Assembly: GCA_023488885.1 (NCBI GenBank)
Contig: JAMDDH010000002.1
Coordinates: forward strand, 62,001-126,000
From: Thermoplasmatota archaeon
GTDB taxonomy: Archaea > Thermoplasmatota > Thermoplasmata > Thermoplasmatales > Thermoplasmataceae
Reading direction: 5' to 3'
Length of the DNA stretch: 64,000 nt
Numbering within the stretch: position 1 is the first letter of the stretch; each line of letters starts with the position of its first letter. The notes under the pieces are model-generated. The model made no database searches. It saw only the letters and a list, made by a program, of their open reading frames with translations, and was not told the origin of the DNA. Both the position numbers and the translations under genes were made by a program. Below are positions 35,062 through 52,788 of this stretch, in pieces.

Positions 35062-38000
35062 ATGCTGCTGGAATCTTTGGAGTTAGATAACTTTAAGTCC
35101 TTCGGAAATAAAAAGAAGATATCGTTCAGGAAAGGTTTCACCGTAATAAGCGGGCCGAACGGGAGCGGAAAAAGCAACATAGGAGATTCACTTCTCTTTG
35201 TCCTCGGCACGCGTTCATCTAAAACTGTCAGGGCGGACCGGCTCGCAGACCTTATTCACACACCTTCAAACGAGCGGAAGAAGAGAAATTACTGCAGCGT
35301 TACCGTGACACTCGACAATACTGATTCCGCTGAATCCTCCGAAGACAGGCACATTGTCCTGAAGAGGGAACTTGTAGCTGACGTTGACGGATACAAGTCA
35401 AATTATTATATTAACGGCAAGCGTGTGAGACATACAGACGTCTCAAACCTCCTTGATTCACTTCGCATATATCTGGATTCATACAGTTTCGTCCTGCAGG
35501 GAGATATAAACAACATCGTGAAAATGACCGGCACGGAGAGAAGAAAACTCCTTGAATCAATTTCCGGCATCGAAACGTTTGATGTCCAGATTGAAAAGGC
35601 AAAGGGGGACATAGCCGCAATCAATGAAAACCTGACCAGGCTGGAGGTTCTCACTGAACAGACAAGGCTGAGGAAAGATCAACTGGAAAATGAAAAAGCA
35701 GGTGCGGAGAAATATCTGGAACTTGTGGGACATAATGCTGATTTAAAAAAGACATATCACAGTCTCGAAATAGAAGCGATAAACAGGGAAATGCGTTCAT
35801 ACTCAGGAAGTGCAAACAACCTTCAGCAACAGATTTCTTCCACGGAGAGCAAAATATCAGAGCTGGAAAAGAGTATTGAAGCCAAAAGGCGTAATGAAGA
35901 AGAACTGAAAATGAAACTTGAGGTGTCAGGGAACTCACAGCTTAATGAGATCAGAACTCAGGTCGAGAATAAACGGATAAAGATCGCTGAGCTTGGAATA
36001 AATATAGAAAACACGAAGGACAGAATTGCGAGGATCAAGTCCGAGACCGCTGAAAATTCTGAGGACATAAAGAAGAGTGAAAAAAAGATTCAGTGGTTGC
36101 AGTCAAACAAGGAAGAGAACAGTCAGACCCTTATGGATATAAGAACCGAAATTCAGGGAAAAGTTAACGATTTAAGAATACTGAAGGATAAATCAAGCAA
36201 GAGTAATTCAGAAATACTCCAGAAACAGGAAGAGATAAGGGAAAAAGATCAGGAGATTAAAACCCTTAACTCCCAACTGTTAGAGATACAACGGGAAAAG
36301 GAAGCATTGAATTCACAACGGACACAGACGATTTCCGAACTCGGCAGATTAGAAGAAAAGAAGAAGGACCTGGAATTTCAGGTCCGGGATGCTAACTGGA
36401 GATTGAAGGAAATCGAGAAGGAGGTCGGCGGAAGCAAAAAGAATTACGAAACCCTGAATTTCAAATATTATGAGCTCAAGAATGAACTCGATAAACTACG
36501 CGGCAGGAAAGACGAACTTCAGGTTGAAATGAACCGGATTGGCAGGGAACATGGGCAACTGCAGGCAATGTCTGCCTCAAGATCCGGGTCTCAAAACCGG
36601 GCTGTAACAACAATAATGAATGCAAGGAATCAGGGTAGGATTTCCGGAATACATGGGACCATTAAGGAGTTAATAAAATTCAATGAAGAATTCAGGGCTG
36701 CTATTGAGGCCGCAGCCGGTTCCAGGCTAAATTCAGTAGTGGTCGAGGACGACGGCGTCGCAGAGAAATGCCTGGAAATTCTCAAGCAGGAAAAAACTGG
36801 AAAATTGACGTTCTTACCCATTAACAAAGTTCTCGGAGGAAGGCCAAGAGGTAAGGCTATCACCGTCAGAGGTTCGGAGGGTTCACTCGGCTACGTGTTC
36901 GAGAAAGTGAGCTACGAGAGCAGGTACGAAGGAATCGTCTGGTACGCATTCCAGGACACAGTTATTGTAAAAGACGTAAAAACTGCCAGAAAATACATGG
37001 TCGGCGCCAGGCTGGTCACCACAGACGGCGATATATTCGAGGCTAACGGAGCTATTACTGGCGGTTACCAGGATCGGTCAAGATCTTCTGCAGATACAGA
37101 GCAGAAGATCATTCAGTTGTCTGCCAAAATCCGGGAAATTTCTGCTGAGCTGGAAGAAATAAACTCAGTGATCCCGACTGTTGAATCACAGTTTGAAACT
37201 GTATCTCAACAGCTGAGAGAGGGTTCCAGAGACGAGGGTGCAAGAAACTCCGAAATGCAACAGTTGAAGAAGATCTCTACGGAAGGCAGACCCCAGATAG
37301 AAAATATCCAGGTCACAATAACAGAGATGAGCGATAAGCTGAAAGAACTGGATAATGAAATTAGAAAACTTGAAGAAAAATACGGCCAAATAACACAGTA
37401 TATCTCTGCTGTCGAGTCCGACAAGAATGGGCTGTTTGATAAGATAAAGGAACTTTCGCCAAAGTACGCAGAAAAGGAGGAGAGGCTGGACGACGAAATT
37501 GCATCGTTGAGATCCAAGGAGAGTGAATTCTCCTCGGAAATCACGAAAATCGATTTGGACATATCACATCTGCGAGACAGAGTTTCGGAATCCACAGAAA
37601 AAATCAGTAATATGGCTCAGGAATCAGCTGAACTGACAAAGCAACTCAGGAACACGCAGGATAACCTTCTGATTGAGAACGATGAACTTGCAAAACTCCG
37701 TGCCGTCGAAGCTGATATTTCTCAACGGTCTAAGGAGATCGTCAATGCCCTTAATGAGGTTGGATCTGAAATAAGAAGAATACAGGATTCATTGGATACA
37801 GAGCGCGCAAACCTGTCTACCGGGAGAGGGATGCTTCTCTCCATAGAACTAAAGATAGAGGGTCTTGAGGCAAAGTCCCGCGAGATTACCTCTGAAATGA
37901 GTGCTATCGATGGAAAGATACTCACAGACATGAGGTCTCTAACAGAGATCAAGAGGGAAATGGAAGATTGCAACAGAGAAATCAGCCAACTCGGTCCAGT

Positions 38001-38604
38001 GAACCAGAAGGCCATAGAAGAATATGCTGAAGTTTCAAAAGACCTGGACGACCTTATCCGGGAAGTTGAAGGTCTCAGTTCTGAAAAATTAGAATTGGAA
38101 ATGCTTACAGAAAAACTCAATGAGCAGAAGAAACACGTGCTGCTGGATATGTATAACGCCATAAACGAGAATATGAAACTGATTTATCACGAGATATCCG
38201 GCGGTGGAGAAGCATATCTGGAAATGTCTGATGTGAACAATCCGCTGGAATCAGAGATGCACATCAAGGCAAAACCAAAGGGAACCAATTTCTCAAAGAT
38301 AGAGGCGCTCAGCGGCGGTGAAAAAAGTCTCACGGCCCTCTCATTCATCCTCGCCGTTCAGAGAATCAACCCCTCACCGGTATACTATCTGGACGAGGTT
38401 GACATGTTCCTCGATGGAGCCAACGCTGAGAGAGTTGGGAAAATGTTCAGGGCAAATTCGGATAATTCACAGGTTCTCGCCGTATCCCTGAGGAAGGCAA
38501 TGCTGAAATATGCCGATAATGTCGTGGGAGTTACCAGCTTCGATGACGAGAACACGGAGGTCTTCGAGAAATCCGTAGAATCTGAAATGGGGGTTGTAAA
38601 ATGA
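35062..38604 (+). CDS. smc: Chromosome segregation protein SMC
   Basis: A full-length SMC ATPase of 1180 residues. Walker A is GPNGSGKSN (31-39). Long coiled coils (about 165-500 and 670-1000) flank the hinge (about 520-670, with GIHGTIKELI and VTTDGDIFEANGAITGG). The C-terminal head has the signature LSGGEKSLTAL and Walker B VYYLDEVDMFLD. It organises chromosomal DNA with the kleisin encoded next. The scpA start overlaps its stop (ATGA), indicating coupled production of the complex. Confidence 0.96.
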   Translation: MLLESLELDNFKSFGNKKKISFRKGFTVISGPNGSGKSNIGDSLLFVLGTRSSKTVRADRLADLIHTPSNERKKRNYCSVTVTLDNTDSAESSEDRHIVLKRELVADVDGYKSNYYINGKRVRHTDVSNLLDSLRIYLDSYSFVLQGDINNIVKMTGTERRKLLESISGIETFDVQIEKAKGDIAAINENLTRLEVLTEQTRLRKDQLENEKAGAEKYLELVGHNADLKKTYHSLEIEAINREMRSYSGSANNLQQQISSTESKISELEKSIEAKRRNEEELKMKLEVSGNSQLNEIRTQVENKRIKIAELGINIENTKDRIARIKSETAENSEDIKKSEKKIQWLQSNKEENSQTLMDIRTEIQGKVNDLRILKDKSSKSNSEILQKQEEIREKDQEIKTLNSQLLEIQREKEALNSQRTQTISELGRLEEKKKDLEFQVRDANWRLKEIEKEVGGSKKNYETLNFKYYELKNELDKLRGRKDELQVEMNRIGREHGQLQAMSASRSGSQNRAVTTIMNARNQGRISGIHGTIKELIKFNEEFRAAIEAAAGSRLNSVVVEDDGVAEKCLEILKQEKTGKLTFLPINKVLGGRPRGKAITVRGSEGSLGYVFEKVSYESRYEGIVWYAFQDTVIVKDVKTARKYMVGARLVTTDGDIFEANGAITGGYQDRSRSSADTEQKIIQLSAKIREISAELEEINSVIPTVESQFETVSQQLREGSRDEGARNSEMQQLKKISTEGRPQIENIQVTITEMSDKLKELDNEIRKLEEKYGQITQYISAVESDKNGLFDKIKELSPKYAEKEERLDDEIASLRSKESEFSSEITKIDLDISHLRDRVSESTEKISNMAQESAELTKQLRNTQDNLLIENDELAKLRAVEADISQRSKEIVNALNEVGSEIRRIQDSLDTERANLSTGRGMLLSIELKIEGLEAKSREITSEMSAIDGKILTDMRSLTEIKREMEDCNREISQLGPVNQKAIEEYAEVSKDLDDLIREVEGLSSEKLELEMLTEKLNEQKKHVLLDMYNAINENMKLIYHEISGGGEAYLEMSDVNNPLESEMHIKAKPKGTNFSKIEALSGGEKSLTALSFILAVQRINPSPVYYLDEVDMFLDGANAERVGKMFRANSDNSQVLAVSLRKAMLKYADNVVGVTSFDDENTEVFEKSVESEMGVVK

Positions 38605-39374
38605 ATCAGAGCGAAGTGATGCAGAGCATAGTTGTTCAGGGTACCCTTCTGGAAAGCGATACGAAATATTATGTCGAGTTGCTGGACAGCGATACAATCA
38701 GCGTTGAATATTCAGACCCGGTAAAGAGAACAATTTCATCGGTGTTCAAGATGTGTCTTGACGGTTCTATAGATCCTTGGAATATAGATCTCAAAGCCTT
38801 TGTTGAGATTTTTTCCGGGATGGTCGATGAAAATTTCAGGGACTTCGGCGCAGCCGGTTACCTCATTTACCAGGCATGGAAAATTCTCAACCGGAAATCG
38901 CTGGAATCACTTGAAAAAAGGCTGGTTACGGAAGATTTTGAAGAGGAAAGCCAGGATGCCCCTGAAATTGTCCGCTTTCAGGATCCTCTTGAGATATCTG
39001 TCAGAGAACCCGTAAAGCACCAGGAACAGAGGAAGGTATTCCTTGTAGAACTCCTGGATGCAATGAGAGACGCTTACAGGATTCCCTTTGTACAGAGGAA
39101 AAGGAAGGAGATAGAAGAACCGGAACATCTTTCTACCGTCATAGAGGGTATTGTTCATGAACTTCACGCTGAAGAACCGGAAACAGAAATAAGGCGGGTC
39201 TACGAGATACTCCTCTCTTTGCCCGATTCAGTCTATCTGGAAGACGTATGGAACACAGGAGACTTTTCAAGAGCCGCATTTTTTGTGTACTGCATGTTCC
39301 TGATGAGGGAAAAAAAGATCAGACTCCAGCAGAACGTCCCATATGGCCTGATCAAGATTGAGAAACCGTTGTGA
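38601..39374 (+). CDS. scpA: Segregation and condensation protein A (kleisin)
   Basis: This 257-residue kleisin bridges the SMC heads. The N-terminal SMC-binding block contains the typical DPWNIDL and the following amphipathic helix region. An acidic middle and a C-terminal winged-helix part (about 185-257) follow. It overlaps smc at the start and the next gene at the stop (GTGA), so this is a tightly packed operon. Confidence 0.88.
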   Translation: MNQSEVMQSIVVQGTLLESDTKYYVELLDSDTISVEYSDPVKRTISSVFKMCLDGSIDPWNIDLKAFVEIFSGMVDENFRDFGAAGYLIYQAWKILNRKSLESLEKRLVTEDFEEESQDAPEIVRFQDPLEISVREPVKHQEQRKVFLVELLDAMRDAYRIPFVQRKRKEIEEPEHLSTVIEGIVHELHAEEPETEIRRVYEILLSLPDSVYLEDVWNTGDFSRAAFFVYCMFLMREKKIRLQQNVPYGLIKIEKPL

Positions 39375-39619
39375 TCGATCTGGACAGCAAAGACTATATC
39401 AGCGCTTCCGAGATTTCAACCTACGTCTTCTGTAATGTATCTTGGTACATGGACAGGGAAGGCTACCAGAGATCCTCTTTTTCGGGGGTAAGGATGAAGA
39501 AAGGTTCAAAGTCTCATGCGACACTCAAGTGGCGTTATAATCTCACAAGATTCGCTGCAGCCCTGATACTCCTGGTGATTATTGCTATTACAATATTCAT
39601 CTACTCGAGTCTCCAGTGA
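39371..39619 (+). CDS. N-terminal part of a split Cas4-like protein, with C-terminal membrane helix
   Basis: An 82-residue protein starting at GTG 39371, overlapping scpA. Residues 11-27 read SASEISTYVFCNVSWYM, the pattern S-x-I-x-x-Y-x-x-C-x-x-x-(W/Y) at the N-terminus of Cas4-like nucleases, with Cys21 as the first iron-sulfur ligand. A hydrophobic helix (about 60-80) then ends the protein. The nuclease core and the other three cysteines are in the next gene, one base after this stop in another frame. Either the two polypeptides form one enzyme, or a frameshift has divided a single gene with a membrane hairpin. Confidence 0.65.
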   Translation: MIDLDSKDYISASEISTYVFCNVSWYMDREGYQRSSFSGVRMKKGSKSHATLKWRYNLTRFAAALILLVIIAITIFIYSSLQ

Positions 39620-39620
39620 A

Positions 39621-40145
39621 ATGACAGGACAAACATTTTCTCCGGAATTTTTCATAGTAGTTATACTTCTATTAATAGCATTTTTCCTGTTGAGGAGGTC
39701 TGCGAAAAAATACAGTATTCCCAAGGGAAAGGAAGTGTACGATGATCTAGGTTCCCGTGGGAAGATTCTCAGGTCACAGAAATACGGGCTTACCGGGAAA
39801 CCCGACATGATAGTCAGAAAAGGCAGAAAACTGATTCCGTATGAATACAAAAGCACTGACGCCAGCGTGCCGCGCGAGGGGCACATTTTTCAGATGGTCA
39901 CGTATTTTCTCATACTGGAAGACCTGTACCCGGAATTCACCATTAAATACGGTGTCCTGAAATACAAGAATCAGGCGTTCCGTATTGACAACATTGATGA
40001 GAACAAAAGAAAACTTCTGGACGTGGTGTTTGAAATGAGGAATTCAAGATTTGAGCCGATCAGGAATCATAATAACTCCGGCAGATGCTTCCGATGCTCG
40101 TTCAAGGAGAACTGTCAGCAAAGCTTAATTAGGCAGCACATATAA
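39621..40145 (+). CDS. Cas4/RecB-like PD-(D/E)XK nuclease with N-terminal membrane helix
   Basis: This 174-residue protein starts with a membrane helix (about 9-25) and a basic stop-transfer segment. It continues with a nuclease core: Asp62 in GKPD, Glu75-x-Lys77 in YEYKS, and Gln91-x3-Tyr95, the RecB-type QxxxY motif. Near the end are Cys156, Cys159 and Cys165 in C-x2-C-x5-C spacing, the three C-terminal cluster ligands of Cas4-like nucleases. The first ligand would be Cys21 of the preceding gene. No cas genes are near; the context is smc-scpA and tyrS. A role in DNA processing at the membrane is an inference. Confidence 0.8.
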   Translation: MTGQTFSPEFFIVVILLLIAFFLLRRSAKKYSIPKGKEVYDDLGSRGKILRSQKYGLTGKPDMIVRKGRKLIPYEYKSTDASVPREGHIFQMVTYFLILEDLYPEFTIKYGVLKYKNQAFRIDNIDENKRKLLDVVFEMRNSRFEPIRNHNNSGRCFRCSFKENCQQSLIRQHI

Positions 40146-40157
40146 TCGCATTCTCAG

Positions 40158-41147
40158 ATGTTGTCATTAGATACTCTTTCACGGAACATGCAGGAGATCG
40201 TCACACCGGAAGAATTCAAAAGCCTCGGAGATCGAGAGGTAAAGGCGTACATTGGTTTTGAGCCGTCCGGACTCCCGCACATTGCCACAGGATTCATGTG
40301 GCCAAAAAAAATGGCTGAGATTTATGAAATGGGCATAGAAACTACAATACTTCTTGCAGACTGGCACGCCATGGTTAACGATAAGCTTGACGGAGATCTT
40401 GCAAAGATAAGGCAGAGCGGAGAACTGATAAAGAAGTGCATGCAGGCTGTGGGACTGCCTAAAGAAGTGAAGTTCGTCTGGGCCAATGACGTTGTTTCTG
40501 ATCCGGAGTACTGGAAAACCCTCCTTCTGGTAGCAAAGAATTCCAACCTGGCCAGGGTAAGGCGCGCTCTTCCCATAATGGGGAGGAGTGAGGAGGATGC
40601 TGACAAGGATTTCAGTAAATATATTTACCCCCTGATGCAGGTAACTGACATATTCCACATGGATTTCGATCTGGCATTCGGTGCCATGGATCAGAGACAC
40701 GCACATATGCTGGCAAGGGACATCGCAGACAGGATGGGCAGAAAGAAAGTTATATCTGTTCATGGCCCCCTGCTGAGCAGCTTGAAGGGATCAGGCCGGA
40801 TGGATTCATTCAAGAAGATGTCCAAGAGTGATCCAGACTCGGCGATATTCATGTCAGATTCGAAAGAAGACGTCTCCAGAAAGCTGAAAAGTGCTTTCTG
40901 CCCGATAGGGGAAATACAGGGGAATCCTGTTATGGATATATTCAGACATGTCGTTTATCCTTACCTGGGCCACGAAGTTGAAATTCACAGACCTCCGGGG
41001 AAGGGTGGAGATATAATTGTTTCAACTTACGAAGAACTTGAAAAATTGTACCTAAAGGCGATGATACATCCCATGGATCTGAAATCGGCTGCTGCAGAGA
41101 GTCTCAACGAACTCATGGAACCGTCAAGACATGTTTTCTCGGATTAA
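40158..41147 (+). CDS. tyrS: Tyrosyl-tRNA synthetase (archaeal type)
   Basis: This 329-residue class I synthetase charges tRNA-Tyr. GFEPSG (33-38) and the KMSKS loop (about 222-226) are clear. The HIGH element reads HIAT followed by GF, a variant with Ala in the third place. The tyrosine-binding region YPLMQVTDIFHMDFD also fits. It has the short archaeal form without a C-terminal S4 domain. Confidence 0.92.
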   Translation: MLSLDTLSRNMQEIVTPEEFKSLGDREVKAYIGFEPSGLPHIATGFMWPKKMAEIYEMGIETTILLADWHAMVNDKLDGDLAKIRQSGELIKKCMQAVGLPKEVKFVWANDVVSDPEYWKTLLLVAKNSNLARVRRALPIMGRSEEDADKDFSKYIYPLMQVTDIFHMDFDLAFGAMDQRHAHMLARDIADRMGRKKVISVHGPLLSSLKGSGRMDSFKKMSKSDPDSAIFMSDSKEDVSRKLKSAFCPIGEIQGNPVMDIFRHVVYPYLGHEVEIHRPPGKGGDIIVSTYEELEKLYLKAMIHPMDLKSAAAESLNELMEPSRHVFSD

Positions 41148-52107: not shown

Positions 52108-52788
52108 ATGTCAAGAAAAGATCAGATTGAAGAGATGTTTCTCGAAATTGTTCAGGGAAAGCCGTACACCGGAAAACCGATACCGCTTAACAGACTCAGC
52201 ATAGGTGGGCTGGCCTATAGCGTGGAGCAGGAAATAAAGAGAAAACTCGGGGAAAAAGAGGAAACACTCAAGGATAAACTGAACATGTTCAGGGGAACTG
52301 CTCTTCACAACCATGTTCAATACCTGGTCAAAAACCAGGGATACATATCAGAGTATAGAATATATTACTCCATTCCACACAGGTGGCATTACATGGGATT
52401 TGAAAACATCAACCTTGTCGGCGTCATTGATCTGCTGCATGAAACGAAAAGAGAGATCATTGAACTGAAGAGTTCAACCTCTTCTGACAGGATTGAAGAT
52501 TATCACAAGATCCAACTGGCTTCTTACATGAAAATGCTTCAGGAAAAGACGGGCCATGAGTACAGCGGTATTGTTGTCAAGTTCGGGGGAACTGCCATAG
52601 CGGCTGAAGAAGTATCAGGAGGAGACATCCCAAACTACTGGGCCACTGTGGTAAGGAGAGCAATCGAGGTTGCTGACAGGCTTGATCAGGTTATGGAAGA
52701 GAGGGATATATCCAACCTCTCAAACGATAAACCTGAAAATGGCGGAAATGCGGGACTTTACGGTTTCGACAACTCAGATCACAACTGA
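52108..52788 (+). CDS. RecB-like PD-(D/E)XK nuclease
   Basis: A 226-residue protein with the Cas4/RecB nuclease pattern: GTALHNHVQ (about 69-77), GVIDLL with the metal-binding Asp (about 110), IIELKSS with Glu-x-Lys (about 121-127), and QLASYMKM as the Q-x3-Y motif. It has no cysteine cluster, unlike the nuclease beside scpA. Its 3' end overlaps the convergent RaSEA-type gene by 15 nt. Specific function is unknown. Confidence 0.8.
   Translation: MSRKDQIEEMFLEIVQGKPYTGKPIPLNRLSIGGLAYSVEQEIKRKLGEKEETLKDKLNMFRGTALHNHVQYLVKNQGYISEYRIYYSIPHRWHYMGFENINLVGVIDLLHETKREIIELKSSTSSDRIEDYHKIQLASYMKMLQEKTGHEYSGIVVKFGGTAIAAEEVSGGDIPNYWATVVRRAIEVADRLDQVMEERDISNLSNDKPENGGNAGLYGFDNSDHN

Follow-up and report, generated by a model that had tools for sequence, protein, structure and literature searches.

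The window, i.e. the whole 64,000-nucleotide stretch of DNA that was analysed, originates from a Thermoplasmatota archaeon and harbours two small genes, termed here the N half and the C half, which are located between smc and an scpA-like gene on one side and tyrS on the other (Table 1). The N half starts with a GTG codon at 39371 that overlaps the stop codon of the scpA-like gene (GTGA) and ends with TGA at 39617–39619; the C half starts one base past this stop with ATG at 39621, and its own stop codon ends at 40145. The close packing with the condensin genes noted in the initial annotation is evident from this overlap and from the single base between the two halves. The coordinates given there and the composition proposed for the two products were also found to be correct: an 82-aa protein with an N-terminal cysteine motif and a C-terminal membrane helix is followed by a 174-aa protein with an N-terminal membrane helix, D..ExK..QxxxY residues and a C-x2-C-x5-C cluster. 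The motif I histidine of the N half had been overlooked. A search of the scpA-like gene against Pfam and NCBIfam profiles returned nothing above threshold.

Table 1. Genes and sequence features of the locus (window coordinates; TM, transmembrane).
Feature	Position	Strand	Evidence or remark
smc	35062..38604	+	TIGR02169, 891.7 bits
scpA-like gene	38601..39374	+	adjoins smc; conserved in relatives; overlaps start of N half
N half, 82 aa	39371..39619	+	Cas4 N-terminal helices (Cys21, GxxxH49) and C-terminal TM helix
Cys21 (N half), first of four Fe-S cysteines	39431..39433	+	in all scored loci having the N part
His49 (N half), motif I metal ligand of PD-(D/E)XK site	39515..39517	+	lost only together with ExK
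TM helix of N half, approximate	39551..39607	+	hydropathy; one TM helix in 38/38 relatives
C half, 174 aa	39621..40145	+	TM helix, PD-(D/E)XK core and three cysteines; profiles, fold of a relative
TM helix of C half, approximate	39648..39692	+	hydropathy; one TM helix in 37/38 relatives
Catalytic core D62 (of GKPD) to K77 (E75-Y-K77), C half	39804..39851	+	conserved motif
Q91xxxY95 motif, C half	39891..39905	+	conserved motif
C156-x2-C159-x5-C165, remaining three Fe-S cysteines, C half	40086..40115	+	conserved motif
tyrS, directly downstream of C half	40158..41147	+	NF006330, 403 bits

Conservation of the two-gene arrangement

Out of 40 named contigs that were fetched, one carried a bacterial Cas4, one (L051) began at a contig end past the N gene, and 38 contained both halves. 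In all 38 of these Thermoplasmatales loci the genes follow the order scpA-N-C-tyrS, with the end of smc upstream. The frame of the C half relative to the N half is +2 in 19 loci, +1 in 15 and 0 in four, and the start of the C half lies mostly between −7 and +4 nt from the N stop, a few automatically chosen starts outside this range falling inside or upstream of the gene. Most C halves start with ATG, GTG or TTG, and the TGA-x-ATG junction is identical in the four same-genus assemblies having the gene. Both ORFs are under purifying selection, with pairwise dN/dS, where measurable, of 0–0.25 for the N half and 0.03–0.11 for the C half (one C comparison was saturated). Eleven diagnostic residues are identical in all scored loci, with the exception of two catalytically degenerate lineages and one cut locus lacking the N half.

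Judging from these comparisons, the split into two genes is genuine. Since separate ORFs are present in 38 named loci and their frame relation varies, a sequencing error is excluded, and the same variation argues against a programmed frameshift shared by the relatives; the junction looks like one of ordinary translational coupling. It is very improbable that a single fused protein arises by programmed frameshifting or read-through, or that the split is an assembly error. The tightness of the junctions, the single stop codon that separates the halves in the four in-frame loci and the absence of a standard initiation codon around the beginning of the C half in the E-plasma type genus would fit such a reading; however, all three frame relations occur among relatives from many independent assemblies, most of them with an ordinary start codon, and sequencing error, frameshift and read-through were dropped on account of this variable frame relation and the number of assemblies. 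In the case of the E-plasma type genus (L054, L057, L069), no ATG, GTG or TTG is found near the expected start of the C half and the N stop overlaps a CTG (CTGA), which suggests either a CTG start or a frameshift in this genus.

Fold, active site and membrane topology

The C half exceeds the cut-off of the PF01930 profile (33.5 bits, cut-off 22.7) and scores 60.2 bits against TIGR00372 (cut-off 65). The N half alone matches columns 1–43 of 180 of TIGR00372 (E 0.04) and columns 2–44 of 168 of the PADLOC Cas4 model (E 0.0012); weak as they are, these matches cover the start of the Cas4 models and are complementary to the C half. In hhalign comparisons with a fused relative containing four TM helices, the profile of the N half aligned with columns 5–54 (E 6.6e-10) and that of the C half with columns 187–331 (E 5.6e-40), the TM block of the fused protein falling exactly between the two. 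When N and C were read through as one artificial chain, the scores against TIGR00372 (cut-off 65) were 85.2 bits for L046, 69.6 for L058 and 62.9 for L049.

L046, a relative in which the two halves are in frame and separated by TGA, was used for modelling, with the stop codon translated as Trp. The AlphaFold2 model of this artificial read-through chain, calculated without a membrane and from an alignment in which some N-only rows are misaligned in the TM stretch, reached a pLDDT of 87.6 and a pTM of 0.79. The best match in a structure search was Cas4 of 7mi4_A (Z 18.9, rmsd 2.5, 172 residues, model residues 2–254), and the best-matching solved structures were Cas4 subunits of Cas4-Cas1-Cas2 complexes (7mi4 and 8d3l, Z 17.7–18.9). 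AdnA, EXO5, SSO0001, Dna2 and AddB followed at lower similarity, with Z of about 9–13.5 for the nuclease domains of AddB, AdnA, Dna2 and EXO5. Matches to transporters and kinases with Z of about 6 span the helix hairpin only and are taken as a common helix arrangement. According to the profiles and this model, N and C together make one Cas4 fold that is interrupted by a membrane hairpin. As profile match, catalytic residues, four cysteines (one plus three) and fold are all present, the pair falls within the broad Cas4 nuclease family.

Both hydrophobic stretches are contained in two long helices of the L046 model (33–83 and 87–114), which we read as a membrane hairpin inserted into the Cas4 fold. 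In all 37 scored loci K and R are more common on the side of the TM helices that bears the nuclease parts, in agreement with the positive-inside rule; the far side, on which each chain terminates after a few residues, is almost free of positive charges. The soluble parts of both N and C should therefore lie on the cytosolic face, and the hairpin with both halves in the cytosol that had been suggested earlier is thus supported as a prediction.

The catalytic set is divided, with the motif I His in the N half and D, E, K, Q and Y in the C half. The four Cas4-type cysteines are, as had been claimed, distributed over the two proteins, one in N and three in C, and all four are present in every scored locus with two halves. 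Homologues lacking catalytic residues, which the initial annotation regarded as an argument against its reading, do occur, but in two lineages only, the other scored loci being intact. In these two groups (G036, represented by L023/L107, and L070/L071/L114) the His of the N chain and the E and K of the C chain have been lost and the four cysteines retained. Among the scored loci the His and the E/K were never lost singly, and in the tree the two groups are separated, with intact relatives next to each of them. The chance of such coinciding losses is about 1 in 91 by our own estimate, in which some 12 intact genus-level lineages and the two degenerate ones are treated as independent. The joint loss with retention of the cysteines ties N and C to one active site.

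For L070 and L071, dN/dS is near 0.055 in both genes, and hence the degenerate version is still maintained in this lineage, the one of the two in which selection was measured. As the pair is kept without catalytic residues in both lineages, a non-catalytic function must exist at least there, which suggests a second use of the scaffold. It is unlikely that the pair serves mainly as an Fe-S, DNA-binding or redox scaffold, with nuclease activity being secondary: the cysteines preserved in both degenerate lineages and the selection acting on one of them are consistent with this explanation, but the full catalytic set is found in all other scored loci, including relatives as distant as those of families f3 and f4 (f and g numbers are labels of the genome search).

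Relatives and genomic context

When 300 genomes of the class were searched, 73 of 91 genera proved to contain relatives of the C half. Among the matches listed outside f1, the family of the window (assigned to Thermoplasmatales by the named contigs), most are single open frames of about 325–345 codons. The 17 fused forms examined have four predicted TM helices between the same two end blocks (eight in L130), with one extra weak hydrophobic segment in two of them; the equivalent of Cys21 is invariant, and all five fused forms tested exceed the cut-off of the NCBI cas4 model TIGR00372. The fused version anticipated by the initial annotation thus exists, but with four TM helices instead of a two-helix hairpin. 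Split forms are also present in f3, f4, f14 and f15, in some cases with a fused paralogue next to them. Tree comparison neither favoured nor rejected a split that arose only once (p-AU 0.20).

Individual fused forms deserve mention. The protein with eight predicted TM helices (L130:4755-6431, + strand) looks as if the four-helix block had been duplicated. Another (L122:4826-5800, − strand) carries a D to N (GKPNYV) and a Q to K substitution and is possibly a further catalytically dead member. In several families the fused gene is preceded by a co-oriented gene for a lamin-tail and phospholipase-D-like (LTD-PLD) protein (L120, L135–L137, L141, L145, L148 and L154; downstream in L115 and L116), which, given its N-terminal hydrophobic segment, is possibly exported. 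At other loci, which represent many families (L118, L122–L125, L139, L142, L144, L152 and L153), a co-oriented gene with a TPD domain (PF14811) lies directly upstream, mostly accompanied by a convergent downstream gene that we read from its sequence as glmS-like. The LTD-PLD and TPD neighbours were looked for in f1 and not found there as such. A PLD-only protein of about 290–320 aa is encoded by the f1 members G010, G014, G022, G028 and G030, which lack the pair, and is absent from most pair-bearing genomes tested.

According to the initial annotation, the pair would be a membrane nuclease working with SMC-ScpA. The co-directional, overlapping and immediate arrangement smc-scpA-N-C-tyrS in every assessable f1 locus speaks for such a partnership, whether as membrane anchor or as nuclease partner of the condensin. 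However, this adjacency is confined to f1: among the loci examined, no split or fused relative outside the family was found near smc or scpA. Furthermore, all eight near-complete f1 genomes tested in which no pair was detected retain smc-scpA, and in g5 tyrS comes straight after scpA. The latter gene, which has no SMC link, is equally close to the pair and, in four of five f15 loci (L175, L176, L177 and L179), shares an 11.5–12 kb stretch with the split pair, within several kb of it; smc and scpA were not detected in these stretches. Hence, apart from the linkage within f1, neither the co-occurrence nor the conserved linkage expected of an SMC-ScpA component was observed, and the claim was not supported; a role in condensin appears improbable and was set aside as based on a lineage-specific linkage. 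The adjacency is probably incidental, and the vicinity of tyrS may be where the pair was located earlier. Because smc-scpA persists without the pair, the adjacency occurs only in f1 and g5 joins scpA to tyrS directly, we read smc-scpA-N-C-tyrS as a lineage-specific operon of housekeeping genes, not as a machine.

The earlier statement that the pair lies away from any CRISPR locus agrees with the failure to find Cas1 in its own genome (92.5% complete). It is even less probable than a condensin role, and about as improbable as a fused product, that a CRISPR adaptation Cas4 has been displaced from its locus: the likeness in profile and fold to Cas4 of Cas4-Cas1-Cas2 complexes would favour such an origin, but in several genomes the pair occurs without Cas1 or Cas1 without the pair, the pair contains the membrane insertion, and the CRISPR-type Cas4 sequences cluster separately in the tree. 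As no link to, or dependence on, cas1/cas2 was found, a CRISPR role was set aside. One scan of IMG/VR, based on sequence patterns that may miss distant relatives, confirmed no viral relative.

Proposed activity and comparison with known nucleases

The reading preferred here, with a probability of roughly 0.7, is that N and C form an assembled, split and membrane-tethered Cas4-family nuclease. The two translationally coupled small membrane proteins would assemble with the N half supplying the first helices, Cys21 and the metal-binding His49, and the C half the beta core with D62, E75, K77, Q91, Y95 and Cys156/159/165. Each chain would contribute one TM helix to a hairpin, with the chain ends meeting at the outer face, so that both cytosolic halves complete one PD-(D/E)XK site with a shared iron-sulfur cluster as its cap. 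This proposal builds on the conserved split, the complementary halves, the topology signals, the joint loss of catalytic residues and the selection, all seen by sequence comparison and modelling, from which we infer the physical assembly of the chains, the Fe-S cluster, the nuclease activity and cutting at the inner membrane face.

The pair would act, like Cas4, as an exonuclease that trims or degrades DNA reaching the inner face of the membrane or tethered to it, independently of CRISPR, with incoming phage, plasmid or transforming DNA as possible substrates. That the pair acts on incoming DNA is a tentative guess by analogy, since in Synechococcus an incoming plasmid is transferred or maintained less well in the presence of a solo Cas4-like nuclease (PMC10653904). 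Several complete f1 genomes lack the pair.

The pair is filed here with solo-Cas4, neither with CRISPR Cas4 nor as an SMC subunit. Solo-Cas4 proteins (SSO0001, Pcal_0546) share with it the PD-(D/E)XK core, the QxxxY motif, the four cysteines and a location outside CRISPR loci, as well as a largely vertical inheritance (PMC5704561). In contrast to the pair, with its TM hairpin, two chains and two catalytically dead lineages, the known solo-Cas4 are single chains, none of them described as membrane-bound. The Cas4 subunits of 7mi4 and 8d3l have the same fold over both halves, whereas the pair lacks a Cas1/Cas2 partner and carries a membrane segment inserted between its motif I and its core. The fused Thermoplasmata protein shares the two end blocks and the HRNH/RNH preceding the first C-terminal Cys, but differs in its single chain, its four (in L130 eight) TM helices and its other gene neighbours. 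The nuclease domains of AddB, AdnA, Dna2 and EXO5, which are stapled by Fe-S clusters, are related PD-(D/E)XK folds of lower similarity without membrane helices. In AddB, AdnA and Dna2 the nuclease is joined to a helicase, unlike in the pair: no helicase profile, as expected of an AddB/Dna2-type helicase-nuclease, was found in N or C.

Cas4 proteins have hitherto been described as single-chain and probably always active nucleases; Hudaiberdiev et al. 2017 suggest in their survey (PMC5704561) that every Cas4 is active, and a term search of that survey gave no mention of a membrane-bound or split Cas4. No paper describing either was found in a full-text search of a partial literature library. 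From its sequence, the pair looks like an unrecognised membrane-anchored Cas4-family nuclease unconnected to CRISPR. A wider reading, doubtful as a whole, would join the fused four-TM and the split one-plus-one-TM forms in a dedicated membrane-embedded Cas4 branch of Thermoplasmata that receives and processes DNA on its way across the membrane, in several lineages with the nuclease-like, possibly exported LTD-PLD protein; the split pair would form one Fe-S nuclease site from its two membrane proteins and in some lineages serve as a non-catalytic Fe-S DNA-binding anchor. Such a class-wide branch, with an active and Fe-S site made by two membrane proteins and catalytically dead members that keep their cysteines, would allow the role of the cluster to be told apart from that of catalysis and would suggest that DNA is processed at the membrane of archaea.

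A further ORF of the window (52108-52788, + strand, 226 aa) gives a weak Cas4 profile match (17.6 bits) and has neither a membrane helix nor the cysteine cluster; it is a candidate for another stand-alone PD-(D/E)XK-like protein.
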